NCBI GenBank assembly: GCA_949152475.1
Contig: CASCJZ010000520.1
Coordinates: forward strand, 682,001 to 746,000
DNA: 64,000 bases
From: Terebella lapidaria
Taxonomy: Eukaryota > Annelida > Polychaeta > Terebellida > Terebellidae
Direction: 5' to 3'
Below are positions 1 to 42,559 of this stretch, in pieces. The notes beneath the pieces are model-generated. The model had not been told where the DNA came from. It ran no database searches and saw nothing but the letters and a program-made list of their open reading frames with translations. Positions within the stretch are counted from its first letter, which is position 1. Each line of letters begins with the position of its first letter. Position numbers and translations under genes: made by a program.

Positions 1-755
1 AGCACAATCTCCAGCCAGGGTTCAGTTGCATGAATGCAGTAATTCGGGGCGGAATCCAGGCCTGATACTTATAATGTAAATATCTAGAATGGGCAAGGTG
101 GGTGTTTTTTGTTGTGTAGTATCATGGGTCATACAACGAAATTGTATGAACATTCTCTGCTGACAGAGGATACTTCTTGAAAGCGTATTATACTTTGTTG
201 ACTGCATTAGTCTTCCCACACTGTTCCTATACTTTGGGGCTTGTGTTTTCTCTGGAAATCTTACTTATATTTAAATGTAAATCTCAATCTATTACCACCG
301 ATACAGCCAAATTTTGATGATTCCAATAACAAACGTAAAACACAACATTTTGCAATCGTAGCATTATATTACTCGCCTATTATGTTGCCACACTTTGACG
401 TATTCGTATCCAGATGTTTCTTGTTGTTAAAAATATTCTATATTTTGTCGTCGTGCAACTTATTTCATTTCATACTTTTATCATCGGAATGTTGATCGTT
501 TTATATATAACCCTGCCGGTAGCACTGAAATTGGAAGAAGCAAGAGGGGCAAGGGTTTCATCAGTATTTGGAAGTGTACGAATATCAGAGGGCCTGCACT
601 TAACAGTCATGTATCATCCAATTTAAGAAAAATAATGGATGCTGAATCAAAATTCATAACAAACAAGAATTTCCAGTGTGAAAGCATTTATTCACGTCCA
701 TCATGCATTTGCCATCAAGTGAAAAAATACCATCGTTGAATGATAATCAATAAAA
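1..755. repeat. Tandem unit, copy 1, left part (interrupted at 755)
   Basis: This stretch matches 21406-22160 almost base for base; the first clear difference is a 2-3 base change near position 20. No reading frame here looks like a gene: the short open frames are AT-rich and unlike any family I know. The unit continues at 15223, after the 14.5-kb composite. In copy 2 the same flanks are joined directly (CAATAAAAGCTATAC near 22156-22170), which fixes the insertion point. The unit starts left of position 1, because 21303-21405 has no counterpart inside the window. Confidence 0.85.
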
Positions 756-3131
756 TCGGCCATAGGCCAACACTTGACGAAATAACTAAACATTTGTTTA
801 CATTTAAAACATTTACTCATTAATTACACATTGAAAAGATATACTGAACAACTTCTAGCATTAGAAATTGGCACTTTTAAGACACCTCCTGAGCATCACC
901 CAGCAGAAAAATTCACAATTTTAGAAATTAGACAAGAGTTGCTTCATTTTCACAGTGACCTTGGACCTTGAATTCTGAATTTTCACAAATTTGTTAGAAT
1001 TAATAATGCACAACTCCTGAGCAGACATACATATTGAATCTTTATGACGTCTCCTGAGCAAGACCCAGCCATTTGAGACTGACTCATTCAAAACATTCAA
1101 TCGATGTGTGTATCAACATAATATATACTACTAACAGCACAAAATTTTGATGATGTCAATATAAGAAAAATTATAGAATACAACACTGCTATAAATGTTC
1201 GTTACTACAACTTGGTAACTTTCATATCATGATGCTGCATCTTCGGAGAACTATCTAATGAGTTCAAGCAGATCGTGATGGCCGTTTTTGCATGCCATAC
1301 TGGTGTTATATGACAGAGGCAACGATAATTTTTGCACGCCATATTCGTACCAAATGATCATTCAACAGTGTATATTCATAATACTATAATAGATTATAAT
1401 GGTAATGGATATTCTTGAAAAAAATAAAGAGCAAAAAAAAATATTTAAAAGCAGGTAGATTCGAACTCGCAGAGTCAAAAGCCTACGTGTTAGAGAGCAA
1501 GCGCTGGAACCACTCGGCCACCGAGCCATCATACAATAAATTGCCATATTCCCCTTACCCATGGAGAACAACATTTACTGTACATGTATGACCGCATGCA
1601 TGTCGGCATGACTGCACGAAGTAATCGATCCAAAATAACTGTAACTTTATAACCCAAACTAGTATTGATAACCAACTTTCACAGTCAACTCAATTGGAGA
1701 ATTAGGGCAAGAAAAGTCCACGTTTCACATTTGTGTATTCAAAGCTGCATAAAACATTTCATATCTCCTATAAATTGGCAACTTATGTGAGGTAATTTTG
1801 CGGCCACTACACTAGGGCTACCACTATGCAACTTGCACATGACCCCCAGATTTTCGGCACCGGGCGATAATCGGGACTTTTGGTCGTACGACCATCGCAC
1901 ATACACCATTTGACGCCGAATTAACCATATAAAAATACAAAAATACTGACAAAAATTAATGTTGATCAAAAGTGGAGTTATTGCGATTTTTCGATTTTGA
2001 CCTTTTACATGACCTTGACCTTAATTTTCAACCTTGAGTTAAGAAACTCCACAGATTTGTTCAATTTGATAAGGCACAACTCCTGAGTAAAAATCAATAA
2101 CCCATATCAGAAATTGGCCTCGCAATATGGGGTTGAAGGTTGCGAGACATGAAACCATAAAATCATGACCCTCAAATTTTCGACCTGGACCGAAAATCGG
2201 GACTTTTGGTCGTACGACCATCGGGCATGCACCACAGGGCGCGGAATTGACCATAAAAAAATATAAAAATACTCAGAAAAAATAACATTGAATAGAAACG
2301 GAGTTATTGCGATTTTTCGATTTTGACCTTTACTATGACTTTAACTGTAATTCTTGATCTTGAGTCCTACATTTTTACACATATGTTCAGTATGATAAGA
2401 CACACCTACTGATTAAAAATCAGCGACTTCTATCGGATTCTGACTGCACAATAACGGTTTGAATATTGCACAAAATACAAATGATCTGAAAACCCCCAAA
2501 TGTTCAACCATGGGCGATAATCGGGAGTTTTGGTCGTACAACCATCGGACATACGTCAGCTGATGTCGAATTGACCAAATAAAAATACAAAAATGTTCAG
2601 AAAAATTAATTTTGATCAAAAGCCAAGTTATTGCAATTTTTCGATTTTGACCTTTACTATGACCTTAACTCTAATTCTTGACCTTGAGTCCTATAACTTC
2701 ACAATCGTGTTTTGTGTGATAAGGCACAACTTCTGAGTGAAAATCAGCAACATATATCGGGAATTTGCTCTATAATATGGTTTTGAATATTGCGAGGTAG
2801 AAAAAAACCTAAATTCGTGACCCCCAAATTTTCGACCTGGACCGAAAATCGGGAGTTTTGGTCGTACGACCATCGGGCATGCATCATATGATGCGGAATT
2901 GACCATAGAAAAATATAAAAATAGCTACAAAAAATAACATTGATTAAAAACGGAGTTATCGCGATTTTTCGATTTTGACCTTTTGCTTGACCTTGACCTC
3001 AATTTTTGACCTTGACCTCCCAAAAGTTAATCACTTGGTCGAGTACTGACTGCACAACTTCTGACAAATTTTCAGCACTCTACGATCAAAATTGTGACCT
3101 GTAGAGCGCTAACAAACAAACAAACAAAAAA
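756..3131 (+). mobile_element. Unit B1 (type 1, no tail hairpin)
   Basis: The head is TCGGCCATAGGCC followed by AACACTTGACGAAAT. The first ~1 kb is AT-rich and holds a tRNA-like module (1454-1527, minus). The second part has four tandem blocks of about 325 bp, each carrying GGTCGTACGACC (a perfect 12-bp palindrome at 1882, 2208 and 2860, degenerate near 2540) and TTGACC-rich lines. It ends in a short CAAA microsatellite and runs straight into the next head at 3132 with no tail hairpin. It is about 98-99% like unit B5 by eye, apart from a ~39-bp gap near 1380. No coding sequence. Confidence 0.7.
1454..1527 (-). repeat. tRNA-derived module in unit B1
   Basis: Read on the minus strand it begins GGCTCGGTGGCCGAGTGGTT, with an A-box-like TGGCCGAGTGG, and carries GAGTTCGAATC, a B-box-like sequence, about 40 bases further on. 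That is the spacing of a class II (Ser/Leu-like) tRNA. The acceptor ends do not pair and the anticodon arm is unclear, so this is a SINE-type or tRNA-pseudogene module rather than a working tRNA gene. The same module sits at 3902-3975 and 13433-13496. Confidence 0.6.
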
Positions 3132-3901
3132 TCGGCCATAGGCCAACACTTGACGAAATATCTACACATTTGTTTATTTACATTTAAAACATTTACTCAT
3201 AATTTACACATTGAAAATATTTACTGAACAACTAGCATTAGAAATTGACACATTTAAGACACCTCCTGAGCATCACCCAGCAGTAGAATTCACAATTTTA
3301 GAAATTAGACAAGAGTTGCTTCATTTACACAGTGACCTTGGCCTTAATACTTAATACTTAATACTTGGTCCCTGAATTCTGAATTTTCAAAAATTTGTTA
3401 GAATTAATAATGCACAACTCCTGAGCAGACATACATATTGAAATTTTATGACGTCTCCTGAGCAAGACCCAGCCATTTGAGACTGACTCATTTAAAACAT
3501 CCAATCGATGTGTGTATCAACATAGTATATACTACTAACAGCACAAAATTTTGATGATGTCAATATAAAAAAAATCATAAAATACAGTATTGCTATTAAT
3601 GTTTGTTACTACAACTTGGTAACTTTCATATCATGATGCTGCATCTTTGGAGAACCATCTAATGAATTCAAGCAGATCGTGATGGCCGTTTTTGTATGCC
3701 ATACTGGTATTATATGACAGAGGCGACGACAATTTTCGCACGACATAATGCCCATATTCCTACCAAATGATCATTCAACAGTGTATATTATTAATATATC
3801 ATAACACATTGCAAAAAGTTCTTGGATAACCGCTATAATAGATTATAATGGTACTGGATATTCTAAAAAAAAACAAAGAGCAAAAAAAATATTTACCAGC
3901 A

Positions 3902-3975
3902 GGTAGATTCTAACCCACAGAGTCAACAGCCTACGTGTTAGAGAGCGAGCACTGTAACCACTCGGCCACCGAGCC
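3902..3975 (-). repeat. tRNA-derived module in unit B2
   Basis: A minus-strand A-box-like TGGCCGAGTGGT and a degenerate B box; it is the diverged counterpart of the module at 1454-1527. Not a functional tRNA by eye. Confidence 0.5.
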
Positions 3976-5614
3976 ATCATACAACTTGTTGCCGTATTCC
4001 CTTCCCCATTGTGAACAACTTTTACTGTACATGTATGACCGCATGCATGTCGGCATGACTGCACGAAGAAATCGATCCCAAAATAACTGTAACTTTATAA
4101 CCCAAACTAATATTGATAACCAACTTTCACAGTCAACTCAATTGGAGAATTAGAGCAAGGAAAGTCCACATTTCATATTTGTGTATTCAAATCTGCATAA
4201 AACATTTCATATTTCCTATAAATTGGCAACTTATGTTAGGTAATTTTGCGGCCACTACTCTAGGGCTACAACTATGCAACTTGCACATGACCCCCAGATT
4301 TTCGGCATCGGGCGATAATCGGGAGTTTTGGTCGTACGACCATCGCACATACACCATTTGACGCCGAATTGACCATACAAAAATACAAAAATACTGACAA
4401 AAATTAATGTTGATCGAAAGTGGAGTTATTGCGATTTTTCGATTTTGACCTTTTACATGACCTTGACCTTAATTTTCGGCCTTGAGTTAAGAAACTCCAC
4501 AGATTTGTTCAATTTTATAAGGCACAACTCTTGAGTAAAAATCAATAACACATATCAGAACCTGGCCTCGCAATATGGGGTTGAAGTTGCGAGTCATGAA
4601 ACCATAAAATCAAGACCGTCGAATTTTTGACCCGGACCGAAAATCGAGAATTTTGGTCGTACGACCATCGGGCATGCACCACAGGACGTGGAATTGACCA
4701 TAAAAAAATATAAAAATACTCACAAAAATTAACATTGAATAGAAACGGAGTTATTGCGATTTTTCGATTTTGACCTTTACTATGACTTTAACTGTAATTC
4801 TTGATCTTGAGTCCTACACCTTTACACATATGTTCAGTGTGATAAGACACACCTACTGATTAAAAATCAGCAACTTATATTGGATTTTGACTCCACAATA
4901 ACGGTTTGAATATTGTACAAAATTCAAATGATCTCAAAACCCCCAAATGTTCGACCTTGGGCGATAATCGGGAGTTTTGGTCGTACAACCATCGGACATA
5001 CGTCAGCTGATGTCGAATTGACCAAATAAAAATACAAAAATGTTTAGAAAAATTAATTTTGATCAGAAGCGAAGTTATTGCGAATTTTCGATTTTGACCT
5101 TTACTATGACCTTAACGCTAATTCTTGACCTTGAGTCCTATAACTTCACAATCGTGTTTTGTGTGATAAGGCACAACTTCTGAGTAAAAATCAGGAACAT
5201 CTATCTGGAACTTGCTCTATTATATGGTTTTGAATATTGTGAGGCAGGAAAAACCTAAATTCGTGACCCCCAAATTTTCGACCTGGACCGGAAATCGGGA
5301 GTTTTGGTCATACGACCATCGGGCATGCATCATATGATGCGGAATTGACCATAGAAAAATATAAAAATACCTAGAAAAAATAACATCGATTAGAAACTGA
5401 GTTATTGCGATTTTTCGATTTTGACCTTTTCCTTGACCTTGACCTCAGTTTTTGACCTTGACCTCCCAAAAGTTAATCACTTGGTCGAGTACTAATTGCA
5501 CATCTTCTGACAAATTTTCGGGACTTTACGATCAAAATTGTGACCTGTAGAGCGCTAACAAATAAACAAACAAACAAACAAACAAACAGACAGACAAACG
5601 CAACTGACCAACAT

Positions 5615-5641
5615 ACTTGACGAAATTTAATTTCGTCAAGT
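5615..5641 (+). repeat. Tail hairpin of unit B2
   Basis: A perfect inverted repeat, ACTTGACGAAAT / ATTTCGTCAAGT, with a three-base centre. The left arm also matches the CACTTGACGAAAT just inside each head, so the head can pair with the tail. The same hairpin lies at 10944-10970, 15134-15160 and 15195-15221. Confidence 0.8.
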
Positions 5642-5646
5642 AAAAA

Positions 5647-7823
5647 TCGGCCATAGGCCAACACTTGACGAAATGACTAAACATTTGTTTACATTTAAAA
5701 CATTTACCCATAATTTACACATTGAAAAGATTTACTGAACAACTCCTCGAAATTTGAAGAAAGATACTTTTTTCATGAAATTTTTACGTTGGGCAAACTT
5801 TTCAAGGTCAAGGTCAAAGTGCACATTCAAGGTCAGCGGACAAAGACCTTTTGATATGCTACAATATGGTCCCAGTTTGAACTTTCTATGACGAATAGTT
5901 CCGAAGTTATGGCAATTTTTGTGATTTTGACCTTTTCTTTGACCTTGGCCTTGACCCTTGACCTTGGGTCACGAAAATTGTGCATTGCCCATGCATGAAG
6001 ATATAAATTATACTTGAACAATTCCATCAGAATCGAACAAGAATTCCGGACACTGTGGCTTTTCCAAATTTCGAAAAATTTACGTACATGAGGTCACTGT
6101 GACGTCAATAAACGTCACATTTGAAAACTGATGGGAAACTATTTATCATGGGTTCAAGGCCTTCCATTTGATATATTACTTGATAGGTTTTAGTTAGTTT
6201 GAAAATTTGACCTTGAAGTTTGCTCATGTGACCTCATTTTTCCGATCAAGTTCAAGGTTAATCATGGAATTGACATATAAGTCTGATTGCTATACCTCTT
6301 CTGAATGATATGGTTCAAATTTTATGAGACTACAACGATTCAAACAGATGTTATAACCGAAAAGGTGTTTTTCTGGGATTTCGATGACCTTGACCTTTGA
6401 CCTTGTATTTCAGTTCATAAAGGTAAATGCTATTAATATGCATGTCAAGTTTCAAGGTATTCCATACAGTATTGACGCTGTTATGGCCTTTTGAAATTTC
6501 GGTAATTTGACGTTTATGGCGTCATTGTGACGTCAGTGTACGTCGCAGCGCCGAAAATAGGGTATCACTGCAATCAGGGGCTCAAAACCTTTCCAACGAT
6601 ATACTATTCGTTATGGTGCGCTGACTTTCGTACTTGACCTTGACATTCACCTCATGACGAACTTCTCAAGGTCAAATGCCAAGGTCAAGGACACAGAAGA
6701 TAGGACTCGAGTTTATCTACAATATGACTTGGTTTGAAGTCTCTATAACAAATAGAACCGGAGTTATGGCCACTTATGTGTTTTTAACATTTTGCGTGAC
6801 CTTGACCTTGATCTTTGACCTTGAGTCACGAAAATTGTGCATTGCCTGTGCATGAAGACATATATTATACCTGTGTAATTTCATTAGAATCAAACAAGAT
6901 TTGTGGACACTATGACCATTTGAAATTTCGAAAAATTAACGTTTATGACGTCACTGTGACGTCAATAAACGTCACATCTCAAAACTGATGAGAAAGTATG
7001 TACCAGGGAATCAAGACCTTTCATTTGATATACTACTTGATAGGTTTCAGTTAGTTTGAAAATTTGACCTTGAAGTTTTCCTCATATGACCTTATTTTCC
7101 TGACAAAGTTCAAGGTCAATCATAAAATTGACATATACACTCGGTTACTGTACATCTTCTGAAGGATATGGTTCAAAATTCATGAACCTACGACAAATCA
7201 AACGGATGTTATTACCGGAAACGTGTTTTTCTGGGATTTCGATGACCTTGACCTTGACCTTTGACCTTTGTACTTTAATTCGTAGAGGACATTGCTGTCA
7301 ATATGCATATCAAGTTTCGAGAGATTCCATAAAGTATTGACGATGTTATGGCCTTTTGAAATTTCGGAAATTTGACGTTTGTGACGTCATTGTGACGTCA
7401 GTGTACGTCGCAGCGCCGAAAATAGGGTATCACTGCAATCAGGGGGTCAAGACCTTTCCAACGATGTACTACTCGATATGGTGCGCTGACTTTCGTACTT
7501 GACCTTGACATTCACCTTAGGCGAACTTCTCAAGGTCAAGGTCAAATGCCAAGGTCAAGGTCACAGAAGATAGAACTCGAGTTTATCTACAATATGAACT
7601 TGGTTTGAAGTCTCTAGGACAATTAGAACCGGAGTTATGGCCATTTATGTGGTTTTATCGTTTTGCGTGACCTTGACCTCAATATTTGACCTTGACCTTC
7701 CAAAAATGAACTCATCCATCTATAATTGATTGCACATCTTATGACCTAATTCCATGATTCTACGATCAAAATTGTGACCTGTGGAGCGCTAACACACAAA
7801 CAAACAAACAAACAAACAAAAAA
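5647..7823 (+). mobile_element. Unit B3 (type 2 core, no tail hairpin)
   Basis: It has the same head as B1 but a different core: two tandem blocks of about 0.86 kb, full of TGACCTTGACC lines and of TGACGTCA (CRE consensus) pairs, for example near 6090-6120, 6525-6545 and 7380-7400. It ends in (ACAA)n and joins the next head at 7824 without a tail. No coding sequence. Confidence 0.7.
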
Positions 7824-10800
7824 TCGGCCATAGGCCAACACTTGACGAAATGACTAAACATTTGTTTACATTTAAAACATTTACCCATAATTTACACATT
7901 GAAAAGATTTACTGAACAACTCCTCGACATTTGAAGAAAGATACTTTTTTCATGAAATTTTTACGTTGGGCAAACTTTTCAAGGTCAAGGTCAAAGTGCA
8001 CATTCAAGGTCAGCGGACAAAGACCTTTTGATATGCTACAATATGGTCCCAGTTTGAACTTTCTATGACGAATAGTTCCGAAGTTATGGCAATTTTTGTG
8101 ATTTTGACCTTTTCTTTGACCGTGACCTTGGAGTTTGACCCTGGGTCACGAAAATTGTGCATTGCCCGTGCATGAAGATATAAATTATACTTGAACAATT
8201 CCATCAGAATCGAACTAGAATTCCGGACACTGTGGCTGTTCAAAATTTCGAAAAATTTACGTACATGAGGTCACTGTGACGTCAATAAACGTCACATTTG
8301 AAAACTGATGAGGAACTATTTATCATGGGTTCAAGGCTTTCCATTTGATATATTACTTGATAGCTTTTAGTTAGTTTGAAAATTTGACCTTGAAGTTTTG
8401 CTCATGTGACCTCATTTTTCCGATCAAGTTCAAGGTTAATCATGGAATTGACATATAAGTCAGATTGCTATACCTCTTCTGAATGATATGGTTCAAATTT
8501 TATGAGACTACAACGATTCAAACAGATGTTATAATCGAAAAGGTGTTTTTCTGGGATTTCGATGACCTTGACCTTGACCTTTGACCTTTGTATTTCAATT
8601 CGTAAAGGTCAATGCTATTAATATGCATGTCAAGTTTCAAGGTATTCCATACAGTATTGACGCTGTTATGGCCTTTTGAAATTTCGGTAATTTGACGTTT
8701 ATGACGTCATTGTGACGTCAGTGTACGTCGCAGCGCCGAAAATAGGGTATCACTGCAATCAGGGGCTCAAAACCTTTCCAACGATATACTACTCGATATG
8801 GTGCGCTGACTTTCGTACTTGACCTTGACATTCACCTCATGACGAACTTCTCAAGGTCAAGGTCAAATGCCAAGGTCAAGGACACAGAAGATAGGACTCG
8901 AGTTTATCTACAATATGAACTTGGTTTGAAGTCTCTATAACAAATAGAACCGGAGTTATGGCCACTTATGTGTTTTTAACATTTTGCGTGACCTTGACCT
9001 TGATCTTTGACCTTGAGTCACGAAAATTGTGCATTGCCTGTGCATGAAGACATATTTCATACCTGTATAATTTCATTATAATCAAACAAGATTTGTGGAC
9101 ACTATGACCGTTTGAAATTTCGAAAAATTAACGTTTATGACGTCACTGTGACGTCAATAAACGTCACATCTCAAAACTGATGAGAAAGTATGTACCAGAG
9201 AATCAAGACCTTTCATTTGATATACTACTTGATAGGTTTCAGTTAGTTTGAAAATTTGACCTTGAAGTTTTCCTCATATGACCTTATTTTCCTGACAAAG
9301 TTCAAGGTCAATCATGAAATTGACATATACACTCGATTACTATACATCTTCTGAAGGATATGGTTCAAAATTCATGAACCTACGACAGATCAAACGGATG
9401 TTATCACCGGAAACGTGTTTTTCTGGGATTTCGATGACCTTGACCTTGACCTTTGACCTTTGTACTTGAATTCGTAAAGGTCATTGCTGTCAATATGCAT
9501 ATCAAGTTTGAAGAGATTCCATACAGTATTGACGATGTTAGGCCAAAAAAAAAATATTCTATGTTTCTGGTTATCGCGCGCGTCACTCCAAACCCCGCGC
9601 ATCATTTCCTTTTTAAAAAAAAAAAATCGCGCGCATCACTTAAAATACCGCGCGTCACTTCGTTTTTTATATTTTTTTTACCGCCGCCCTCGACATTTGG
9701 TTATTGAATGATAAAAGAGCACATACAATGTCATATTCTACATGTTTTACAATCAGTAGCAGTTATTAAGCTATGCAAATGTGTGAGTTGTGTTTGTGTT
9801 GAAGAACATAGGCTTACTAAAAGTTCATCAATACATAAATGTGGCCGTATTCGTGTTGTGTTGTGTGTCAGCTCAAATATCACAAACGATGATATTAATA
9901 ACAATGTAGATTAGTCGGTGCGGCAATTTGAAAGCAATAATAATGTCGAGTGAGTAACTGTGCGGTGTAATCGTCAATAGTATGCAAATCGCGGCTACGA
10001 ACGGGTAACAAACTGTTTTATACGTGCGCGGCCGGCAATACTTACCTGTTATCACACCCATGGGATGAATGAAATGCAGATGCAAATTGATATGAATATG
10101 GACGAACGGAAATAATAAAACACGGAAGCAACTTGGACAACCTTATGTACAACACATGCGTAATGCTACAAAGCATCAGGGCAACATAAAGCTTAGGTAA
10201 TATGAAGTTTATCAAAGAATACAAATGTTTTGTTTAGAATATAAAAAAAACAGTAGGATGTTCTATGCACATAATATATTTAACATAGGTAGGTGTTTTA
10301 CTGAGGCAAATGTAGCTTTCATGGCTTCGGTTAACACGACTCGTGCCGATTTAGGAAAAAAAAAAGAAAAAAAAAAATTCGCATCACCGCATCACTTTTG
10401 GAAGACCATTGTAACCAGAAACATAGAATTTTTTTTTTTTGGCCTTATAGCCTTTTGAAATTTCGGAAATTTGACGTTTATGACGTCATTGTGACGTCAG
10501 TTTACGTCGCAGCGCCGAAAATAAGGTATCACTGCAATCAGGGGGTCAAGACCTTTCCAACGATATACTACTCGATATGGTGCGCTGACCTTCGTATTTG
10601 ACCTTGACATTCACCTTAGGCAAACTTCTCAAGGTCAAGGTCAAATGCCAAGGTCAAGGTCACAGAAGACAGAACTCGAGTTCATCTACAATATGAACTT
10701 GGTTTGAAGTATCTAGGACAATTAGAACCGGAGTTATGGCCATTTATGTGTTTTTATCGTTTTGCGTGACCTTGACCTCAATATTTGACCTTGACCTCCC

Positions 10801-10972
10801 AAAAATGAACTCATCCATCTATATTGGATTGTACATCTTCTGACCTAATTCCATGATTCTACGATCAAAATTGTGACCTGTGGAGAGCTAACACACAAAC
10901 AAACAAACAAACAAACAAACAGACAAACGCAACTGACCAACATACTTGACGAAATTTAATTTCGTCAAGTAA
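7824..10972 (+). mobile_element. Unit B4 (type 2 core, with tail; hosts a MITE)
   Basis: This is a near copy of B3 that adds the full tail (hairpin at 10944-10970). A MITE at 9541-10444 splits its second block; without the MITE its length is about 2.24 kb. No gene. Confidence 0.7.
9541..10444. mobile_element. PIF/Harbinger-like MITE with TTA target duplication
   Basis: Terminal inverted repeats of about 34 bp start GGCCAAAAAAAA and share ATTCTATGTTTCTGGTTA. The flanks are TTA at 9538-9540 and TTA at 10445-10447. The uninterrupted sequence (GATGTTATGGCCTTTTG) is present in sister unit B3 near 7340, so the target and the 3-bp duplication are read directly. A TWA duplication is the mark of the PIF/Harbinger superfamily. 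The interior holds CGCGCG-rich patches and A-runs but no transposase frame, so the element is non-autonomous. Confidence 0.75.
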
Positions 10973-10976
10973 CAAA

Positions 10977-12685
10977 CGAGAGCCCCTAGGGCACCCACTT
11001 GCCGGAACGCATACTCATGATTTTTGACAGGTTTCAATGAGTTTGTAAACTTGACCTTGAAAACTTATTCATGTGATTCCATGGATTTAACATATAAGCA
11101 TGAGTGCCATGCCTGTTCTGAATATGATTCAAATTTCATGAAACTACGACGATTCGAGCAGAAGTTATCACCAGTAATGTGTTTTTCTGGGATTTCGATG
11201 ACCTTGACCTTTGACCATGTGGTTCATGTCGTAGAGGCCAACGCTGTCAATATGCATATCAATATCCAAAAGATTCCCTCCAGTATTGATGTTAGAACCT
11301 TTTGAAATTTCAGATATTTGACATTTCTGTCGTCATTGTGACGTCACTGAACGTCATAGCGCCAAAATTAAGACATCACTATAATCAGGAGACCGAGACC
11401 TTTCCAACGGTATCCTATTCAGTATGGTGCACTGAACTTTGTACTTGACCTTGATATTGACTTGTGGCGAACTTCTGAAGGTCAAGGTCAAAGGTCACAT
11501 TCAAGGTCACCTAAGAAAGGCCTTTTGATATGTCACAATATGGTCTTAGTTTGAACTCTCTGCGATCATTAGTTCCGACGTTATGCTTTTATGTGATTTT
11601 GACCTTTTCCTTGACCTTGACCTCGACCTTTGACCTTTGGTCACGAAGATTGTGCATTGTCTGTGTATGGTGATACAGACTATACTAGAATAATTCCGTC
11701 GGAATCGAACAAGAATTGTGGACACTATGGCCTTTTGAAATTTCGAAAAATTGACGTTCATGACGTCACTGTGAGGTCAATGAACGTCACATCTCAAAAC
11801 TAATGAGATACTATGTATCAGGGAATCAAGACCTTCCATTTGATATACTACTTGATAGGTTTCAATTAGTTTGAAAATTTGACCTTGACGTTTTGCTAAT
11901 GTGACCTCATTTTTCGACTAAGTTCAAGGTCAATCATCGAATTGACATATACGTCTGATTGGGATACCTCTTCTGAATGATATGGCTCAAATTTCATGAG
12001 CCTACGACGATTCAAGCAGATGTTATTACTGAAAAGGTGTTTTTCTAGGATTTCGATGACCTTGACCTTGACCTTTGACCTTTGTACTTCAATTCGTAGA
12101 GGTCAATGCCGTCAATATGCATACCAAGTTTCAAGAGATTCCAAACAGTATTGACGATGTTATGGCCTTTTGAAATTTCGGAAATTTGACGTTTATGACG
12201 TCATTGTGACGTCAGTTTACGTCGCAGCGCCAAAAATAAGATATCATTGGAATCAGGGGCTAAAGACCTTTCCAACGATATACTACACGATATGATGCGC
12301 TGACCTTCGTACTTGACCTTGACATTCACCTCATGGCGAACTTCTCAAGGTCAAGGTCAATTGTCAAGGTCAAAGTCACGGACGATAGAACTCGAACCTT
12401 TCTACAATATAAACTTAACTTGAAGTCTCTAGCACAATTAGAGCCAGAGTTATGGCCATTTATGTGTTTTCATTGTTTTGCATGACCTTGACCTTGACCT
12501 TTGACATAGAATCACCAACAGTGTGCAGTCGCGAGCCATAAACCTACAGATTATGCACACAAGGTTTGGAAGAAATCAAGCGAGAATTGTGGATGCTAGA
12601 GGGCGAACAACCAAACAAACGGACACATCCACAAACAAACCGACCAACATACTTGCCGAAATCTTTAGATTCCAGCAAGTAAAAA
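10977..12685 (+). mobile_element. Unit C1 (sister family of B)
   Basis: The head is CGAGAGCCCCTAGGGC followed by ACCCACTTGCCGG; the tail hairpin at 12651-12680 is ACTTGCCGAAATCT / TAGATTCCAGCAAGT. Head and tail both differ from B in the same segment (ACTTGCCG against ACTTGACG), as expected if one enzyme must recognise both. The core is like the B3 core but older. The tail is followed directly by the B5 head. Confidence 0.65.
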
Positions 12686-15222
12686 TCGGCCATAGGCCAA
12701 CACTTGACGAAATAACTAAACATTTGTTTACATTTAAAACATTTACTCATTAATTACACATTGAAAATATATACTGAACAACTTCTAGCATTAGAAATTG
12801 GCACTTTTAAGACACCTCCTGAGCATCACCCAGCAGAAAAATTCACAATTTTAGAAATTAGACAAGAGTTGCTTCATTTTCACAGTGACCTTGGACCTTG
12901 AATTCTGAATTTTCACAAATTTGTTAGAATTAATAATGCACAACTCCTGAGCAGACATACATATTGAATCTTTATGACGTCTCCTGAGCAAGACCCAGCC
13001 ATTTGAGACTGACTCATTCAAAACATTCAATCGATGTGTGTATCAACATAATATATACTACTAACAGCACAAAATTTTGATGATGTCAATATAAGAAAAA
13101 ATATAAAATACAACACTGCTATAAATGTTCGTTACTACAACTTGGTAACTTTCATATCATGATGCTGCATCTTTGGAGAACTATCTAATGAGTTCAAGCA
13201 GATCGTGATGGCCGTTTTTGCATGCCATACTGGTGTTATATGACAGAGGCAACGATAATTTTTGCACGCCATATTAGTACCAAATGATCATTCAACAGTG
13301 TATATTCATAATATATCAAAACAAATTGCAAAAGGTTCTTGGATAAAACCACTATAATAGATTATAATGGTACTGGATATTCTTGAAAAAAATAAAGAGC
13401 AAAAAAAAAATATTTAAAAGCAGGTAGATTCGAACTCGCAGAGTCAAAAGCCTACGTGTTAGAGAGCGAGCGCTGGAACCACTCGGCCACCGAGCCATCA
13501 TACAATACATTGCCATATTTCCCTTCCCCATGGAGAACAACATTTACTGTACATGTATGACCGCATGCATGTCGGCATGACTGCACGAAAAAATCGATCC
13601 AAAATAACTGTAACTTTATAACCTAAACTAGTATTGATAACCAACTTTCACAGTCAACTCAATTGGAGAATTAGGGCAAGAAAAGTCCACGTTTCACATT
13701 TGTGTATTCAAAGCTGCATAAAACATTTCATATCTCCTATAAATTGGCAACTTATGTGAGGTAATTTTGCGGCCACTACACTAGGGCTACCACTATGCAA
13801 CTTGCACATGACCCCCAGATTTTCGGCACCGGGCGATAATCGGGACTTTTGGTCGTACGACCATCGCACATACACCATTTGACGCCGAATTAACCATATA
13901 AAAATACAAAAATACTGACAAAAATTAATGTTGATCAAAAGTGGAATTATTGCGATTTTTCGATTTTGACCTTTTACATAACCTTGACCTTAATTTTCAA
14001 CCTTGAGTTAAGAATCTCCACAGATTTGTTCAATTTCATAAGGCACAACTCCTGAGTAAAAATCAATAACCCATATCAGAAATTGGCCTCGCAATATGGG
14101 GTTGAAGGTTGCAAGACATGAAACCATAAAATCATGACCCTCAAATTTTCGACCTGGACCGAAAATCGGGAGTTTTGGTCGTACGACCATCGGGCATGCA
14201 CCACAGGACGCGGAATTGACCATAAAAAAATATAAAAATACTCAGAAAAAAAAACATTGAATGAAAACGGAGTTATTGCGATTTTTCCATTTTGACCTTT
14301 ACTATGACTTTAACTGTAATTCTTGATCTTGAGTCCTACATCTTTACACATATGTTCAGTATGATAAGACACACCTACTGATTAAAAATCAGCAACTTCT
14401 ATCGGATTCTGACTCCACAATAACGGTTTGAATATTGCACAAAATACAAATGATCTGAAAACCCCCAAATGTTCAACCATGGGCGATAATCGGGAGTTTT
14501 GGTCGTACAACCATCGGACATACGTCAGCTGATGTCGAATTGACCAAATAAAAATACAAAAATGTTTAGAAAAATTAATTTTGATCAAATGCCAAGTTAT
14601 TGCAATTTTTCGATTTTGACCTTTACTATGACCTTAACTCTAATTCTTGACCTTGAGTCCTATAACTTCACAATCATGTTTTGTGTGATAAGGCACAACT
14701 TCTGAGTGAAAATCAGCAACATATATCGGGAATTTGCTCTATAATATGGTTTTGAATATTGCGAGGTAGAAAAAAACCTAAATTCGTGACCCCCAAATTT
14801 TCGACCTGGACCGAAAATCGGGAGTTTTGGTCGTACGACCATCGGGCATGCATCATATGATGCGGAATTGACCATAAAAAAATATAAAAATAGCTAGAAA
14901 AAATAACATTGATTAAAAACGGAGTTATCGCGATTTTTCGATTTTGACCTTTTGCTTGACCTTGACCTCAATTTTTGACCTTGACCTCCCAAAAGTTAAT
15001 CACTTGGTCGAGTATTGACTGCACAACTTCTGACAAATTTTCAGCACTCTACGATCAAAACTGTGACCTGTGGAGCGCTAACAAACAAACAAACAAACAA
15101 ACAGACAGACAGACAAACGCAACTGACCAACATACTTGACGAAATTTAATTTCGTCAAGTAACAAACAGACAGACAAACGCAACTGACCAACATACTTGA
15201 CGAAATTTAATTTCGTCAAGTA
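12686..15222 (+). mobile_element. Unit B5 (type 1, doubled tail)
   Basis: A near copy of B1 carrying a tRNA-like module (13433-13496, minus) and four ~325-bp blocks. It ends in two consecutive tails: hairpins at 15134-15160 and 15195-15221, each with its own CAGACAGACAAACGCAACTG lead-in. The second tail abuts the host flank at 15223-15227. Confidence 0.7.
13433..13496 (-). repeat. tRNA-derived module in unit B5
   Basis: The minus strand carries TGGCCGAGTGG and GAGTTCGAATC, as in B1; the third copy of the same module. Confidence 0.55.
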
Positions 15223-15226
15223 AAAA

Positions 15227-16408
15227 GCTATACACTAGCGGACGGAGATATCCAGGATTACAATATAGTTCATGCCATACCATGCATGTAACAATAATCT
15301 TTAATTATATACAATAATTATATACACAGATGAAAATGCTCAAGTCGCGAGCCTTACATAACTGCTACACTACTACATCAGCGGGTGGGTAAATATGGGA
15401 TGAATAGCAGGTGGGTGCATACATCTCTTGATAACAACTATCGTGTGAATATCGATGATAAGTAATTTACTCAGCAGTGAAGCGCAATCATATGATTAGG
15501 AATCATTCTGCCAGACATTTACTATCAAAGCTTCCACATAGTGATATGGGCATTGATGTAATAACTTGGTGTCGCACACCATGTACTGTTCCTCCCGGTG
15601 TGCGTCTTGCGTACAAGCCCCAGTCACGTGTTCGCTGTCCTGTCTCTGACAAAATTTGTTACATGTACCTGTGAGTGTGTGGTCGGATTCGATGGCTTCC
15701 AGTAAGAAGACTATTTCGTCAGCACATGTAGCCTTATCTCTTTCCGGAATAACCTCGTCAGCGGCCTGAAACATTTTGATTGAATGAATGAATGAATAAA
15801 TATTGTTTATTTTACATCGCATATAAGGCAGGTATAGATGTACACACATGTAGCTTATGTGACAAGATACAACCAAGCATATATATGAGTATACATTATT
15901 ACATTTACATCGCGCAAAGCAATGAAACACACACGAAAATTCATTGTTGAAAGAGAGAAGCACATAATCGAGCACAAGATATCTATAAAAATGTTTCTGC
16001 TTGTGGAATTCTTTCAATTCAGCCATTGTTTTACATTAGAACATGGGACATGATGCCTCGTATAGGCGAAAAATGAAAGGTGACTGTAGGTAAAAAAAAA
16101 TATAAAATCAAAAATTATTATTCTATAATTACCCAGAATTTCATACTAATCATCAACGGCTGTTTATACCAGTTTTGCTGGATTTCCACTTGAGGGCAAT
16201 TATATAAATTCAGTACCTTGGAAATCAATAATCTGAAGAAAGGCTTACTAGATTTTCTAGAGGAGTTTGATAGTCAAAACTCAATAGGCCAAAACTAAAC
16301 ACTACAATTATTATAAACTGCTCGTATTCCAAGCTATGGGCGGGGCCAATATATGGGCCAATAAAGGGACCGCTATACACTAGCGGACGGATATACCAGG
16401 GGCTCTCG
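15227..16408 (-). mobile_element. Possible minus-strand element D carrying an exon-like piece
   Basis: On the minus strand both ends carry nearly the same motif: CCGTCCGCTAGTGTATAGC at 15227-15250 and at 16369-16392. The right end goes on into GAGAGCCCCTGG, which resembles the C-family head GAGAGCCCCTAGG. The left end closes with the small palindrome GCTAgtgtaTAGC before a T-run, where the composite later inserted. This suggests another non-autonomous rolling-circle-like element about 1.2 kb long. Its true 5' edge is uncertain and could instead lie inside a larger element. It contains a (TGAA)n microsatellite and the exon-like 15669-15765. Confidence 0.4.
15669..15765 (-). pseudogene. Exon-like fragment, unknown gene (copy 1)
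   Basis: On the minus strand AAAATGTTTCAG (acceptor) is followed by 97 bases open in one frame and then by GTACATGT (donor). The peptide starts AADEVIPERDKATCADEI and goes on VFLLEAIESDHTLT. It begins in phase 0 and ends in phase 1. The wider frame 15496-16026 (176 codons) is open on both sides, but its flanks look like AT-rich non-coding DNA. I do not recognise the family. It could be a real exon, a gene piece captured by element D, or chance. An identical copy lies at 22606-22702. Confidence 0.35.
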
Positions 16409-16868
16409 CTCCAGCAACATCTCTAGGCAGGCGCGCCCTGTGCGACCGACCGGCTTCATTTAATTACCAGGTGTGCTATCCTCCCCTTCCCCTTGCAACT
16501 AGTAGGCCAGATATTCCAGCACGTGCAACATTTATTTTCCATAGGGTCAGGCAAATACTGGATTTATACCACACAGAGACTTTATTATTTTTCTGACGAC
16601 AACGTCGTCTTTCTGCGGCCGATACAGTGTTTTATTACCGACACTCTCTTCTATAAATTAGCAGTCGTGTTATCTCCTAATGTGTGTTGTTCTTTTCCTC
16701 TGTTATTAGGCCAAATGTAGACCACTTTAACAATAGTTGGTCAATTGTGAACCATAAGAACAACATTTACTGCAAACAGTGGCCACACTGACAACATAGG
16801 ACCGAAAGTAGGATGCATCGACATTAATATGCCAAAAGTAGGCAATAATACGATAGGACACTGACAAT

Positions 16869-16906
16869 AATCATAGACATAGAGTGTATATTCTATGTCT
16901 ATGATT
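16869..16906. repeat. Perfect 15-bp hairpin
   Basis: The arms are AATCATAGACATAGA and TCTATGTCTATGATT with an 8-base loop; it also occurs at about 23816-23853 in copy 2. It could be the footprint of a tiny inverted-repeat element or simply a hairpin; no function is visible. Confidence 0.7.
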
Positions 16907-17035
16907 AGTAGGTCACACTGGCAATATTAGCTCAAGGTAGGACATACAATTTCGAGATGCAACTACTATATATGATTTATATATATATATATATATATAT
17001 GATTTATTTCGTAACTTTTAGTTCATCTTGATTTA

Positions 17036-17140
17036 TTATCTAGAAATTTTGAGTTACTATCTAGAAATTTTGAGTTATTATCTCGAAATTTTGAGTTATT
17101 ATCTCGAAATTTCGAGTTATTATCTAGAAATTTTGAGTTA
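17036..17140. repeat. 21-bp tandem repeat
   Basis: About five units of TTATCTAGAAATTTTGAG(TT), alternating TCTAGAAATTTTGAG and TCTCGAAATTTCGAG. Copies 1 and 2 differ in which variant fills one position. Confidence 0.7.
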
Positions 17141-17996
17141 ACTAAATTTCTCCCTTGGCAGCAATACGGCACCATACACACGCACAATATTAGGCAATAA
17201 AAGAATTAGGCCAGAGGCAAGACACTAATAATATTAGGCCAAAAGTAGGGAGTACCGATGATGTCACTCCACAAGTAGGATATACTGACAATATACGAGC
17301 CAAGAGCAGGACCAAAATTCGGACACACTGACAATGTTATATCAAGTGCGCCCAGGGATTCGGAATTTTGAATTATCAAAACGCACTATCATTACTGAAA
17401 AACAAGCCCAATTACTAAACCAACTATTTACACACAGATACCGAACACAATAGTGTCCAGAGTACAATAAATCTAATACTGTTCTGTCTGGGTGACCAAT
17501 ATCGCACAGTCTGCATTCAGACTGGAGTGAGTTGTAAACAAATGAGTTATTGTTCTACGTCTTTCGCTTGCTAATTGTGCTCGCCTAGCGGCTCGCACCA
17601 GTAAGCGAAAGTTCGAGACATAATACAATGATCTATACTTATTATATATCTATATATTTTTTTAAAAAGCAATCGTTTCGATTATGCTTCTAAGAATTTG
17701 GAGAATGAGTGTGATCATCAAAATGGGCTCTCAGTACTGGTAGAAAATATGAATATTTTACACCATAAAAATCTTGCAGTTTTTGTATAAAATGTCATGA
17801 AATTAAACAAAGTATTGCATGTCTAGGTGTCCACTACGGGACTAATCATATGTTTGTGATGAAACGGTGTCGATCTACCTATGATTCTGATATAAACAAC
17901 ACCACTTTTTTCTGAAATAGATCGATTTTGTTTCTACGTTATGTTCTTTGTTTTTCTAGCTGAACATTTTAAAGTACACGGAAATATAAAACTTAC

Positions 17997-18180
17997 CTAG
18001 CTTCTGTTCAATCCTGAGAGCAAGGCAATTAGAACGCAAAGAGGAACCGCAGTCATGAATCCTCAGAACTTTGGGATATTTCACTATGTCACGTGGCCTG
18101 AGCCTCGATGGTTTGAGATAAGCAGCATAAAATGCAGTTTTATTAAAATAAGATCCGCTTCTTCGAATTATCTTATACAT
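17997..18180 (-). pseudogene. Exon-like fragment, weak mTERF-like motif (copy 1)
   Basis: On the minus strand an ATG at 18180 opens 61 codons and one base, followed by a strong donor (CTAG|GTAAGT, 17997/17996). The peptide holds LRPRDIVKYPKVLRIHD and a later LALRIEQKLG. 'DIxKYPxxLxx' followed by a leucine-rich stretch resembles one mTERF repeat, but one repeat is weak evidence. The donor is phase 1, while the acceptor of 15669-15765 is phase 0, so the two pieces would not join directly. It may be a first exon, a leftover of a gene, or chance. Copy 2: 24932-25115. Confidence 0.3.
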
Positions 18181-19148
18181 AGCTACTTTAGTACTACTAG
18201 AGTAGCTATACTGACTTCTCGTCAGAAATCGTTATAACATATTATAATTATATGTTCCCTTACTTATACTCAGTGGGTATCCCTCATTTATATCCCGGGA
18301 GTATTTTTACATATTAACAGATAAATCACCACACCAAAGTTGCTAGTTTGTCCGCGGAAATGATATGGCTCTTTTGTGAACAGGGTGTAAACAAACAAAT
18401 ATCTTGGCAGCGGTATCATATAAAACATCTGTGGGTATCGTAAAACCTTCAGGACTGCCATAGATCTAATCATCATTAGCGCGGGCGCGGCTTCACTGAG
18501 TACAAGTTGCTTGCGCTACCTGTTGATATCGTCATGTATATCTTCTAGAGAGAATGTCTTGGGAAAATGAGCTGGGATAAGCGTTGTCAATTATCTAATT
18601 ACGTGGGAAATATATTAGCAGTCTATATTTTGATAAATTAACGACCCCCTCAATGTTAATGCATCGCGATGGCAGGGCATACATCGAATGATTAGAGTTT
18701 ATAACATCGATTTTTTAAAACATACATGTAGGTACCCAGGCCACCGATACATGTCAACCAGTTTAGACAGTTAGGTGTTATAATAAAGTAATAAAATAAT
18801 ATAAACTCGATAAAATTGCGTATTAGAACATTCACGTGTATCATTACCAACAAAATATTGAGTAATAACCTGTCATTACGATGAAATGTGTGTTCCGCAA
18901 CCCTGATTGAAACACATGCCTAGTTACACTCGATCATCGCGTTACACGTATTTTTGAACGGCACGGATAATATTGATGCTTGACCATACACGTAGACGCA
19001 GAAACTAGCATTTATTGGCTTATAATCATGACTAATGGGCTCATTATGGGTGTGTGAATCGAAGTGAATATAATATTATTTCCGAAATTTATTACATCCC
19101 AGGATAATCACAAATAGACCAATCACCAGAGAGCAGCACTGATGATGC
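18181..19148. other. AT-rich non-coding stretch
   Basis: No gene, RNA or named repeat seen. Reading frames are short and there is no tandem structure. It is duplicated at about 25116-26083. Confidence 0.5.
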
Positions 19149-19262
19149 CCACCTGGTACGACTGTATGGGCACCAGATATATTACAGTATACGCATAAGA
19201 CGATCTGGTACCCATTATCATGGGGACCAGGTTTCGACCTGGTACCCATCTTATCGTACCAG
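19149..19262. repeat. Imperfect ~114-bp palindrome (GGTACCAGG-rich)
   Basis: CCTGGTACGA at the left pairs with TCGTACCAGG at the right. Between them TATGGGCACCAGAT pairs with ATCTGGTACCCAT-type segments, and ACCAGGTTTCGACCTGGT forms a hairpin with a TTCG loop. The whole can fold as a long stem or cruciform. Just beyond it, near 19305-19345, AATAGACGC / GCGTCTATT is a further inverted repeat. Copy 2 lies at about 26084-26197. Confidence 0.65.
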
Positions 19263-19354
19263 GAATATGAATCGGGTGACGTATGAATATCAGGTATATC
19301 GTAACATAATAGACGCACCCCCTTAGCTTTTGCAACGCGCCCGGCGCGTCTATT

Positions 19355-19692
19355 AGGACATATACGGTATGGCACAACTAATGATGACCTTGAACTAGAC
19401 CTCAGTAGACCTTGAGTGCCAAATGTCTGACTGGGAATGTGTACATTGGCCTGAGTGGCCTATACTTTTGCACCCAGACGTATCTTTGTATTATGAACAT
19501 ATAGAAAATCAAATACCGCAACCGTACCTGTAATGGTGACATTGAAGTTCACATTGATGACCTTGATTGGTAAATCTCATGGTCATAATGTTCACACTGA
19601 TAACCTTGATTGATAAATCTCAAGGTTTGTTACATTCCATTATCCAAACCAAAATTGTCCGGTAACCTATCTTAGACTTTGGGCTAATTTTT
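19355..19692 (+). mobile_element. 3' fragment of a family A element
   Basis: It matches the right third of the complete A element (near 28230-28537), including the TTGATTGGTAAATCTC lines, the tail TTGTCCGGTAACC and a GGGCTAA end followed by five T. It abuts the next A head at 19693. The left part is missing. Confidence 0.7.
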
Positions 19693-21254
19693 AGGTTACC
19701 GGACCTATGGTCCGTAACCTATTGGCGTGGCGATGCGTCCGGCGTCGTCGTCGTCGTCCGTCGTCGTCGTCGTCCGTCAACAATTTTATCTTTAAAGTTT
19801 ACGATCAAATTTTTCTGAAATTTTGCACAAAAATGCCTAAAAATATTTCGAGAGGGAGGTATTTTTTAGTTTTTTTATTTTCGCATTTTTTTCAAAATGG
19901 CAGCCGTTTTCGTCGAAAAACGGTCAATTTTGGACTTTGGCGGCCATTTTCTCAAAATCTGTTCAATAACTTTTTTTTTATTGATGCATAACACTCCTCA
20001 TATGTACCCCTGTGACATGTATAAATTTCGTTGCGCTTGAATCGCTCGAAGTGGGCCATTTTGGGCCCAAACTCGGCCCAAATGGGACTTTCCCATGTTA
20101 AATTCTCCTATGCTTTATAATGGGACACATTAAAGCCTAATATCTCACTTAATATTGAGATTAGAGACTAGGAATCAATTGTGGACATATAGGAAATGAT
20201 ATATGCTGAATATTGTCGTGACCTTGAATTTGACCTCTGACCTTGGTTTCAAGGTCAGAGCAGCCGTTTTCGTCGAAAAATGGCCAATTTTGGACTTCGA
20301 CGGTCGTTTTCTCAAAATCTGTTCAGTAACTTTTTTTTCTTATTGATGAAAAACACTCCTCATATGTACCCCTGTGACATGTATAAATTTCGTTGCGCTT
20401 GAATCGCTTGAAGTGGGCCATTTTGGGCCCAAACTCGGCCCAAATGTGACTTTCCCATGTTAAATTTTCCTATGCTTTATAATGGCACACATTAAGCCTA
20501 ATATCTCACTTAATATTGAAATTAGAGACTAGGAATGAATTGTGGACATACAGGAAATGATATATGCTGAATATTCTCGTGACCTTGAATTTGACTTTTG
20601 ACCTCATTTTCAAGGTCACAGGACAAAATGGCTAATATCTCGCTTATTATCGACTTTACAGTTTAGGAATCAATTGTGAACATATAGGAAATGATATATG
20701 CTGAATATTTTCGTGACCTTGAATTTGACCTTTGACCTCATTTCCAAGGTCGCAGGACAAAATTGCTAATATCTCGCTTATTATCGACTTTACAGCTTAG
20801 GAATCAGTTGTGAACATATAGGAAATGATATATGCTGAATATTTTCGTGACCTTGAATTTGACCTTTGACCTCATTTCCAAGGTCGCAGGACAAAATTGC
20901 TAATATCTCGCTTATTATCGACTTTACAGCTTAGGAATCAGTTGTGAACATATAGGAAATGATATATGCTGAATATTCTTGTGACCTTGAATTTGACCTT
21001 TGACCTCATTTTCAAGGTCACATGACAAAATGGCTAATATCTCGCTTATTATCGACTTTACAGTTTAGGAATCAATTGTGAACATATAGGAAATGATATA
21101 TGCTGAATATTTTCGTGACCTTGAATTTAACCTTTGATCCCATTTTCAAGGTTAGAGATATGGCGATTTCAGTGGTCACCTTGAATTTGACCTTCAACTT
21201 CCTCGGCTTAACTCTGTATATTTCTCCGGTAACCTTTCTAGCCCATTGGGCTAA
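19693..21254 (+). mobile_element. Family A element, copy 1
   Basis: The head AGGTTACCGGACC is followed by its own palindrome arm GGTCCG..AACC and a GTCGTC microsatellite. Two unlike spacer blocks (with CAAAATGGC and CTCATATGTACCCC lines) follow, then an array of ~134-bp repeats (TATCTCGCTTATTATCGAC ... TGACCTTGAATTTGACC). The tail TCCGGTAACC is followed by the hairpin TAGCCcattGGGCTA and a run of T. It is non-coding, with one more ~134-bp repeat than its partner at 26627-29684. Confidence 0.75.
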
Positions 21255-22605
21255 TTTTTTTTTTTTGGATTGAATCAATTATGCAGTGATGGCGGCCATT
21301 TTCGGCATATGTATTCATCTATTATTTATGCATGATTATTATTCGCTATTAATAATGCGTGCCAGCATTTTTATGCACTGGGTAAAAATGCTAGATATGT
21401 TTTGTAGCACAATCTCCAGCCAGGAGATTCAGTTGCATGAATGCAGTAATTCGGGGCGGAATCCAGGCCTGATACTTATAATGTAAATATCTAGAATGGG
21501 CAAGGTGGGTGTTTTTTGTTGTGTAGTATCATGGGTCATACAACGAAATTGTATGAACATTCTCTGCTGACAGAGGATACTTCTTGAAAGCGTATTATAC
21601 TTTGTTGACTGCATTAGTCTTCCCACACTGTTCCTATACTTTGGGGCTTGTGTTTTCTCTGGAAATCTTACTTATATTTAAATGTAAATCTCAATCTATT
21701 ACCACCGATACAGCCAAATTTTGATGATTCCAATAACAAACGTAAAACACAACATTTTGCAATCGTAGCATTATATTACTCGCCTATTATGTTGCCACAC
21801 TTTGACGTATTCGTATCCAGATGTTTCTTGTTGTTAAAAATATTCTATATTTTGTCGTCGTGCAACTTATTTCATTTCATACTTTTGTCATCGGAATGTT
21901 GATCGTTTTATATATAACCCTGCCGGTAGCACTGAAATTGGAAGAAGCAAGAGGGGCAAGGGTTTCATCAGTATTTGGAAGTGTACGAATATCAGAGGGC
22001 CTGCACTTAACAGTCATGTATCATCCAATTTAAGAAAAATAATGGATGCTGAATCAAAATTCATAACAAACAAGAATTTCCAGTGTGAAAGCATTTATTC
22101 ACGTCCATCATGCATTTGCCATCAAGTGAAAAAATACCATCGTTGAATGATAATCAATAAAAGCTATACACTAGCGGACGGAGATATCCAGGATTACAAT
22201 ATAGTTCATGCCATACCATGCATGTAACAATAATCTTTAATTATATACAATAATTATATACACAGATGAAAATGCTCAAGTCAGCGAGCCTTACATAACT
22301 GCTACACTACTACATCAGCGGGTGGGTAAATATGGGATGAATAGCAGGTGGGTGCATACATCTCTTGATAACAACTATCGTGTGAATATCGATGATAAGT
22401 AATTTACTCAGCAGTGAAGCGCAATCATATGATTAGGAATCATTCTGCCAGACATTTACTATCAAAGCTTCCACATAGTGATATGGGCATTGATGTAATA
22501 ACTTGGTGTCGCACACCATGTACTGTTCCTCCCGGTGTGCGTCTTGCGTACAAGCCCCAGTCACGTGTTCGCTGTCCTGTCTCTGACAAAATTTGTTACA
22601 TGTAC

Positions 22606-22702
22606 CTGTGAGTGTGTGGTCGGATTCGATGGCTTCCAGTAAGAAGACTATTTCGTCAGCACATGTAGCCTTATCTCTTTCCGGAATAACCTCGTCAGCG
22701 GC
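22606..22702 (-). pseudogene. Exon-like fragment, unknown gene (copy 2)
   Basis: The duplicate of 15669-15765, with the same frame, acceptor and donor. Identity here reflects the recent duplication and says nothing about function. Confidence 0.35.
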
Positions 22703-42450: not shown

Positions 42451-42559
42451 TGATGGGGACCATCCTAGCCGAGCTTCACGGGATAGAGGCCGTGATCGAC
42501 CTGGGATTTCGTCCCGATGGGGGAAAAACAACCCAAGACGAACCTAAAAGGGAACAGTG

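Follow-up and report, generated by a model that had tools for sequence, protein, structure and literature searches.

How do six non-autonomous transposable elements come to occupy a single insertion site, end to end? The question is raised by a locus of the annelid Terebella lapidaria, contained in a window of 64 kb (the whole stretch of DNA analysed here, positions 682001-746000 of contig C408, which is 981 kb long). A tandem unit of ~6.9 kb occurs twice in this window, and copy 1 carries a 14.5-kb insert holding six elements, B1 to B5 and unit C1, with the anatomy of Helentron-type non-autonomous elements (HINEs). A preliminary description proposed that the chain had moved as one block. The stretch is more probably a nest of HINEs that arose mostly or wholly by single insertions, and the observations that bear on this are the anatomy, the empty site, the broken microsatellites, an orphan end, kin with other neighbours, and the order of heads and ends elsewhere in the genome. 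All kin, junction and donor searches cover one assembly (762 Mb, 438 contigs), and the scores given below are those of the best-scoring candidates.

The left host flank of unit copy 1 (1-755, forward strand) matches 21406-22162 at 99.60% over 757 bp, and the right host flank (15224-19978, forward strand) matches 22162-26913 at 99.73% over 4764 bp; the second alignment block pairs 15216-19978 with 22154-26913, likewise at 99.73%. With the upstream flank of the window included, the left border of the unit copies lies at -98 and 21307. The empty site in copy 2 (22152-22169, forward strand) reads AATCAATAAAA followed by GCTATAC, and filled copy 1 reads AATCAATAAAA, then TCGGCC...GTCAAGT, then AAAAAGCTATAC. 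Host sequence in copy 1 extends to 755, the final element base is 15221, and five extra A follow, a gain of 14,471 bp in total after 755. The near identity of the unit copies, the six-element chain in copy 1 and the intact site in copy 2 are thus as the preliminary description had them.

The flanking sequence recurs in the genome as a dispersed repeat, and the site is uninterrupted at 22 further genomic places that match the empty flank, one of these matches beginning 19 bases before the site. Because copy 2 and the 22 paralogous places all run through the site, copy 1, with its insert gained, represents the derived state. The preliminary description had left the choice between insertion and loss open, and only insertion holds. 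A precise deletion of the chain from copy 2, with copy 1 ancestral, could be entertained since tandem copies could undergo gene conversion, for which no direct evidence was found; given the uninterrupted paralogues, this candidate was rejected and its probability is close to nil. Judged by the 0.3-0.4% difference of the tandem copies, the gain is recent, as had been proposed, unless gene conversion keeps the copies alike.

The tandem unit might also be an assembly join of a filled and an empty allele, in which case the duplication would be false and the insertion real. The copies are ~99.7% identical, and contig C408 is far below the largest contig seen (contig C1, 100.8 Mb), both of which would suit such a join. 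The defined common border (-98 = 21307) and a 1.6-kb insert private to copy 2 (26914-28537) speak against it, although each is compatible with alleles too. On balance, an allele join seems unlikely. The private insert lies within a T-run and has palindrome-like ends; no target duplication is evident in it, and it looks like a further Helentron-type element.

The class of the units follows from their anatomy. In the parts of the literature drawn on here, the published HINE plan comprises a 5' subterminal inverted repeat (subTIR) with its inverted copy, a microsatellite, central tandem repeats, and a 3' subTIR with a palindrome, and HINE borders are T-rich, with a TT-type target and no target duplication (PMC7492417, PMC4067079). 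A subTIR of the expected length (11-15 bp near both ends) is present as ACTTGACGAAAT behind each of the five B heads, with the inverted copy in 4/4 B ends of the window. One end has ACTTGACGAAATTTAATTTCGTCAAGT, an inverted copy or palindrome, and the other has the palindrome GGCCTATGGCC; a (CAAA)n microsatellite lies near the right end in 5/5 B units. Central tandem repeats (324 bp x 3.6) occur in B1, B2 and B5; a repeat scan of B3, B4 and unit C1 returned no central tandem repeat beyond the microsatellite. The target is T-rich, and the empty site AATAAAAGCT gains 5 A, from which a duplication is not distinguishable. The units lack the 3' CTRR and the insertion between A and T of canonical Helitrons; their ends have the form ...GTCAAGT(A)n, and they insert inside an A-run. 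By anatomy, the units are best classed as HINEs, a rolling-circle-type family.

All six units are on the forward strand. B1 to B5 share the head AAATCGGCCATAGGCCAACACTTGACGAAAT, and B2, B4, B5 and an orphan piece behind B5 share an end composed of (CAAA)n, CAGA units and ...ACTTGACGAAATTTAATTTCGTCAAGTAA; unit C1 differs from the B type in both head and end. B1 (753-3128, head at 756) is a HINE-like element broken within its own (CAAA)n microsatellite, its right end missing at this place, and inside that microsatellite lies B2 (3129-5643, head 3132, end 5610-5641), a complete HINE-like element. The arrangement repeats with B3 (5644-7820, head 5647), likewise HINE-like, broken within its own (CAAA)n microsatellite and lacking its right end there, and the complete HINE-like B4 (7821-10972, head 7824, end 10939-10970) in B3's microsatellite. 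Both B1 and B3 stop in a (CAAA)n run, and the next head comes directly after, with three extra A. Unit C1 (10978-12682, own head 10978, own end 12646-12680) belongs to a related, distinct HINE-like family, and B5 (12683-15162, head 12686, end 15129-15160), again complete and HINE-like, abuts its end. Behind B5 lies the orphan right end, a 61-bp tandem copy (15163-15223, forward strand, end at 15190-15221) made up of one CAAA, two CAGA, CAAACGC... and the palindrome. Further copies of these ends were absent from the 64-kb window at up to 5 mismatches. The preliminary description mentions neither the orphan end nor the missing right ends of B1 and B3.

B4 holds a miniature inverted-repeat transposable element (MITE) of 904 bp (9542-10445), as the preliminary description had noted. 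It has terminal inverted repeats of ~34-39 bp starting with GGCC, inverted matches of 34-39 bp between its ends, and a TTA target duplication, one TTA on each side. It is a putative element of the PIF/Harbinger type, which is marked by a 3-bp TWA target duplication and terminal inverted repeats.

Stepwise nesting would account for this arrangement. B1 would have landed first, within unit copy 1, at an A-run that reads TT on the opposite strand. Later copies would target the (CAAA)n microsatellite beside one end of a resident, or a resident's A-rich border: B2 would have entered B1's microsatellite and B4 that of B3, while B3, unit C1 and B5 would have been added at element borders or in the microsatellite remainder, and the MITE would have entered B4. 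Each microsatellite insertion would shift the resident's ~61-bp end outward, and ends would accumulate on one side. What we infer in this scheme is the sequence in which the events took place, the rolling-circle enzyme and the disappearance of a second displaced end. We interpret the orphan piece as a right end displaced from either B3 or B1, and its CAGA units weakly favour B3, with two in the orphan end, two in the B3 kin L081 and L082, and four in the B1 kin L074 and L078, which have intact ends; the counts do vary among units (B2 two, B4 one, B5 three). The second expected orphan end has probably been lost; adjacent 61-bp direct repeats can contract.

The nearest kin of the units favour a nest over a block, since the kin of B2, unit C1, B1 and the end of B3 have other neighbours or none of this kind. 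B2 shows 0 differences in 2515 bp from a copy on contig C1 (G000:C1, ~33515.8-33518.3 kb, L080), whose left neighbour differs from B1 at 96/1744 positions (5.5%) and whose right neighbour is not B3. Among the fetched loci, the nearest kin of unit C1 is a solo copy (L050), 99.06% identical and gap-free over all 1703 bp. B1 is 99.63% identical over 2148 bp to L002 and L005, and ~99.6% identical over that length to three copies, one of which (L007/L078) has non-element, host-like flanks on both sides. The last 521-524 bp of B3 are 100% identical to C17:18502887 and C7:27030211, both with intact ends of their own. The 5' part of B4 is 99% identical to C16:22134962 over 797 bp, and the nearest MITE among the 29 other loci cut out reaches 99.45% over 905 bp. 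In comparison with their nearest kin, most units seem young and are found beside other neighbours there, B5 excepted.

These comparisons run counter to the earlier view that the units had been neighbours long before any joint move, a view drawn from their divergence from one another. Divergence between units is divergence between subfamilies and says nothing on their time as neighbours; as a date for the neighbourhood it was rejected, because B2 is identical, and unit C1 99.06% identical, to kin without these neighbours.

Junction searches likewise favour the nest, since three junctions are unique among the candidates scored. For the B4-MITE, B4/C1 and C1/B5 junctions, no second spanning place at matching identity was found among those candidates. 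The best spanning matches reach 81% for B4/C1 and 86% for C1/B5, and other matches from the B4-MITE search cover the MITE wholly or partly with at most a few flank bases. The B1/B2-type junction recurs at 98% overall, with the B2 part identical and the B1 part not, and the B3/B4-type junction recurs at best at 95%. A donor locus with the same chain, as envisaged in the preliminary description, was thus not matched at these three junctions among the scored candidates of this assembly.

An element landing in a resident's microsatellite would displace that resident's end outward, so heads and ends should pair like brackets. With H for a B head, T for a B end, and h and t for the head and end of unit C1, the order along the 14.5 kb is H H T H H T h t H T T, with six heads and five ends. 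The nesting signature is seen directly elsewhere in the genome: L003/L074 has a B1-type copy with the microsatellite at its left, then at the right the end of a different family and other sequence, and L082 and L089 each have a different end behind their own. L084 and L088 have a common outer flank, and because L088 keeps an orphan end that L084 lacks, ends can be lost.

Strings on contig C1 were counted from the first 100 of the 821 exact heads in the genome (to 63.7 Mb) and the 55 exact ends before that point, taking clusters with at least one end. Strings such as HHHTTTT and HHHHTTT occur among the matches listed. Within this set, stacked ends lie behind runs of at least two heads in 6/21 cases and behind single heads in 0/20 (Fisher p = 0.012), and the end run is longer than the preceding head run in 1/41 cases. 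The deepest stack among the matches listed has four B-type ends 61-65 bp apart behind three exact heads (G000:C1:41274507-41274720). One array on contig C1 spans 49.6 kb, so the size of the present chain is not exceptional, contrary to what had been suggested. Among 48 heads at fetched loci outside the window, 24 lie in a CARA-type microsatellite, 17 right behind the end of another element and 7 elsewhere, in a non-random sample chosen by similarity to stretches with the B1 host flank or the B4 end (L080 chosen by hand) and classed by a simple pattern that counts, for example, the A/C-rich host flank of L007 as microsatellite.

Short composites, judging from their junctions, do spread as blocks of two units, perhaps more. 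A short unit of ~700 bp, s, adjoins B2-type units with ~28 bp of filler at the junction. The 261 bp across the s/B2 junction, filler included, show 100% identity at 14 places on 10 contigs, that of the query counted, and at least 98% at 23/40 scored places; over ~1.5 kb, twelve places have an equal score. The right neighbours of s-B2, sampled at 9 of the twelve places, represent at least 7 contexts. Its left neighbours, sampled at 5 places, vary in element or in microsatellite length, and two of them are alike in sequence. Two-unit composites are read as moving as blocks because an identical junction recurs between differing neighbours. From match tables alone, s-s-B2 and still longer forms that share this right end may exist. 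The spread of s-B2 could reflect either a start at the outer end with a stop at the first terminator, as excerpts of the work on FoHeli propose for its composites (PMC5148889), or the passing of a terminator; the text consulted on intact Helraiser gives capture of flanking DNA in ~11.7% of events (PMC4778049).

Could the whole chain have moved in this way, by a rolling-circle start at the outer end and the passing of four or five internal terminators? The empty site, the exact borders on the outside and the recurrence of the s/B2 junction at 14 places on 10 contigs are in keeping with such a move. Against it, the scored candidates include no donor for the B4-MITE, B4/C1 and C1/B5 junctions, the best B1/B2 match combines a 100% identical B2 with an element 5.5% different in place of B1 (96/1744), and the best B3/B4 match stands at 95%; passing four or five terminators would moreover be rare if the Helraiser figure carries over (PMC4778049). 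A move of the whole chain as one composite is accordingly very unlikely, and of the earlier rolling-circle block proposal the family type stands by anatomy and multi-unit mobility by s-B2, whereas the block move of this chain is not supported. Arrival in a few pieces, namely B1-B2 and B3-B4 composites, unit C1 by itself and a double-ended B5, each piece set directly against the one before, would fit the observation that each end-less unit precedes a complete one, like the mobile s-B2 composite, and doubled-terminus composites formed by self-insertion are proposed in the excerpts on FoHeli (PMC5148889). Neither the B1-B2 nor the B3-B4 pair recurs at matching identity among the candidates scored, however, which leaves arrival in pieces quite unlikely. 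A concatemer of one circle was rejected, as the neighbours at B2/B3, B4/C1 and C1/B5 are different elements.

Several observations weigh against stepwise nesting, which we still regard as probable. One orphan end is present where two are expected, with six heads and five ends. Exact matches across the genome number 821 heads and 457 ends, an excess of heads which implies that ends are often lost or mutated, or that another route yields end-less units. All five end-less junctions behind GTAGAGCGCTAA (B1/B2, L004, L075, L080, L095) have exactly four CAAA, whereas the count ranges from 1 to 6 in the other seven end-less junctions whose CAAA run is pure; the uniformity goes beyond random landing and may reflect a fixed landing point or shared descent. 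The full-length kin of B5 reach 98% only (best C3:23908233). The orphan end itself might stem from a local duplication of 61 bp or belong to a two-ended B5 variant, and the same picture would result if a nest already assembled in an unseen haplotype had moved here.

Elements that could supply the enzymes are represented in the same genome. A profile search for the Rep domain (PF14214) placed 150/150 scored places above the cut-off, among 234 candidates, many of them in open frames of >2000 aa. The direction of Rep equals that of the HINEs at 18/18 places within 20 kb and at 33/36 within 50 kb (36 of the 150 Rep places have a typed HINE place no more than 50 kb away), and neighbouring typed HINE places <100 kb apart are on the same strand in 64/65 pairs; these samples are neither random nor independent, the 159 typed places coming from searches with the chain's own sequences and many lying in one array. 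The arrays seem to be nests of elements on one strand, with Rep-coding elements inside them or nearby. By HINE anatomy the right end is the 5' end, whereas close to the arrays the Rep open reading frames (ORFs) point from head towards end; Helentron ORFs are reported in both orientations in the consulted part of PMC4067079.

A more general reading treats the element's own microsatellite as a landing pad. The microsatellite would be a preferred target, giving same-orientation arrays of tens of kilobases with Rep copies nearby, and composites would be launched from these arrays, leaving by passing terminators or by starting at the outer end. We put this forward tentatively, with somewhat more doubt than confidence.

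The closest known system is that of HINEs and DINE-1, especially Cg_HINE of Crassostrea gigas, which by the published anatomy in the parts consulted has the same plan as the elements here (PMC7492417; PMC4067079). On the minus strand of the window, the elements here show this plan as a 5' subTIR ACTTGACGAAAT with inverted copy, a (TTTG)n microsatellite, central tandem repeats (324 bp x 3.6 in B1, B2 and B5), a 3' subTIR and the palindrome GGCCTATGGCC, with T-run borders and a T-rich target without target duplication. The elements here are unlike Cg_HINE, so described, in that their own microsatellite is often hit by later copies, which yields same-strand arrays of tens of kilobases. Work on FoHeli and on Helraiser and Myotis, taken from excerpts, offers nested units, doubled ends, abutting ends and composites moving as one, including tandem insertions cited for bat, Drosophila, rice and maize (PMC5148889) and Helraiser end bypass and abutting Helitrons in Myotis (PMC4778049). 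The present arrays differ in having more units per array than the cases described in these excerpts and in landing in an element-borne microsatellite.

Plant centromeric Helitrons form tandem arrays of truncated copies (Xiong et al. 2016, as relayed in PMC12628747 and PMC7492417), and resemble the present arrays in that one end is present in many copies and the opposite end in few. In contrast to these, as far as the relayed account goes, neighbours here are often of different subfamilies and some displaced ends are those of other families, which a circle concatemer would not give. Drosophila transposon dimers arise from insertion-site preference (McGurk and Barbash, via PMC12628747), and C. 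gigas has shuffled, nested Helitron loci (via PMC12628747). In both, as relayed, a resident copy offers a preferred target for adjacent or nested copies; here, unlike there, the specific target can be named as the element's own microsatellite. Helitron-like elements in Lepidoptera are said to disrupt (GAAA)n microsatellites, going by the title of a 2010 study by Coates et al. The likeness, at title level, is microsatellite insertion, and the difference is that the microsatellite here belongs to a resident of the same kind. No description of HINEs landing in their own microsatellites was found at the level of titles and abstract openings, which does not imply absence from print.

Several other repeats occur in the window. 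A ~131-134-bp tandem repeat family (20498-21152, 29062-29582, 33927-34973, 44729-45617, 49037-49752, 51395-52320, 56916-57830) sits inside related elements, and unit copies 1 and 2 each end near such an array. Direct repeats of ~569 bp, 98.6% identical, lie at 38135-38701 and 43897-44465; between them are a G+C-rich stretch with 15-bp GCGGAAG-type repeats and the window's sole listed ORF of at least 250 aa (42408-43445). A minisatellite of 17-bp units (GGTCTGTGTAACTGTGT-like), strongly asymmetric between the strands, occupies 59592-64000, more than 4.4 kb, and reaches the right edge of the window.

The locus carries a caution, namely that the divergence of adjoining units is uninformative on how long they have been neighbours. 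Beyond this, non-autonomous rolling-circle elements could form long same-strand arrays without concatemer replication, through a preference for a repeat that they carry themselves. Such arrays would keep a readable, bracket-like record of events, in which heads open and displaced ends close. The wider interest lies in the landing-pad behaviour and in the coexistence of nests with mobile composites; if the landing-pad reading is true, array growth and block mobility would be two sides of one cycle. Individual events can be told apart by their ends, fillers and microsatellite counts, which makes this genome a natural testing ground for the start and stop points of Helentron transposition.

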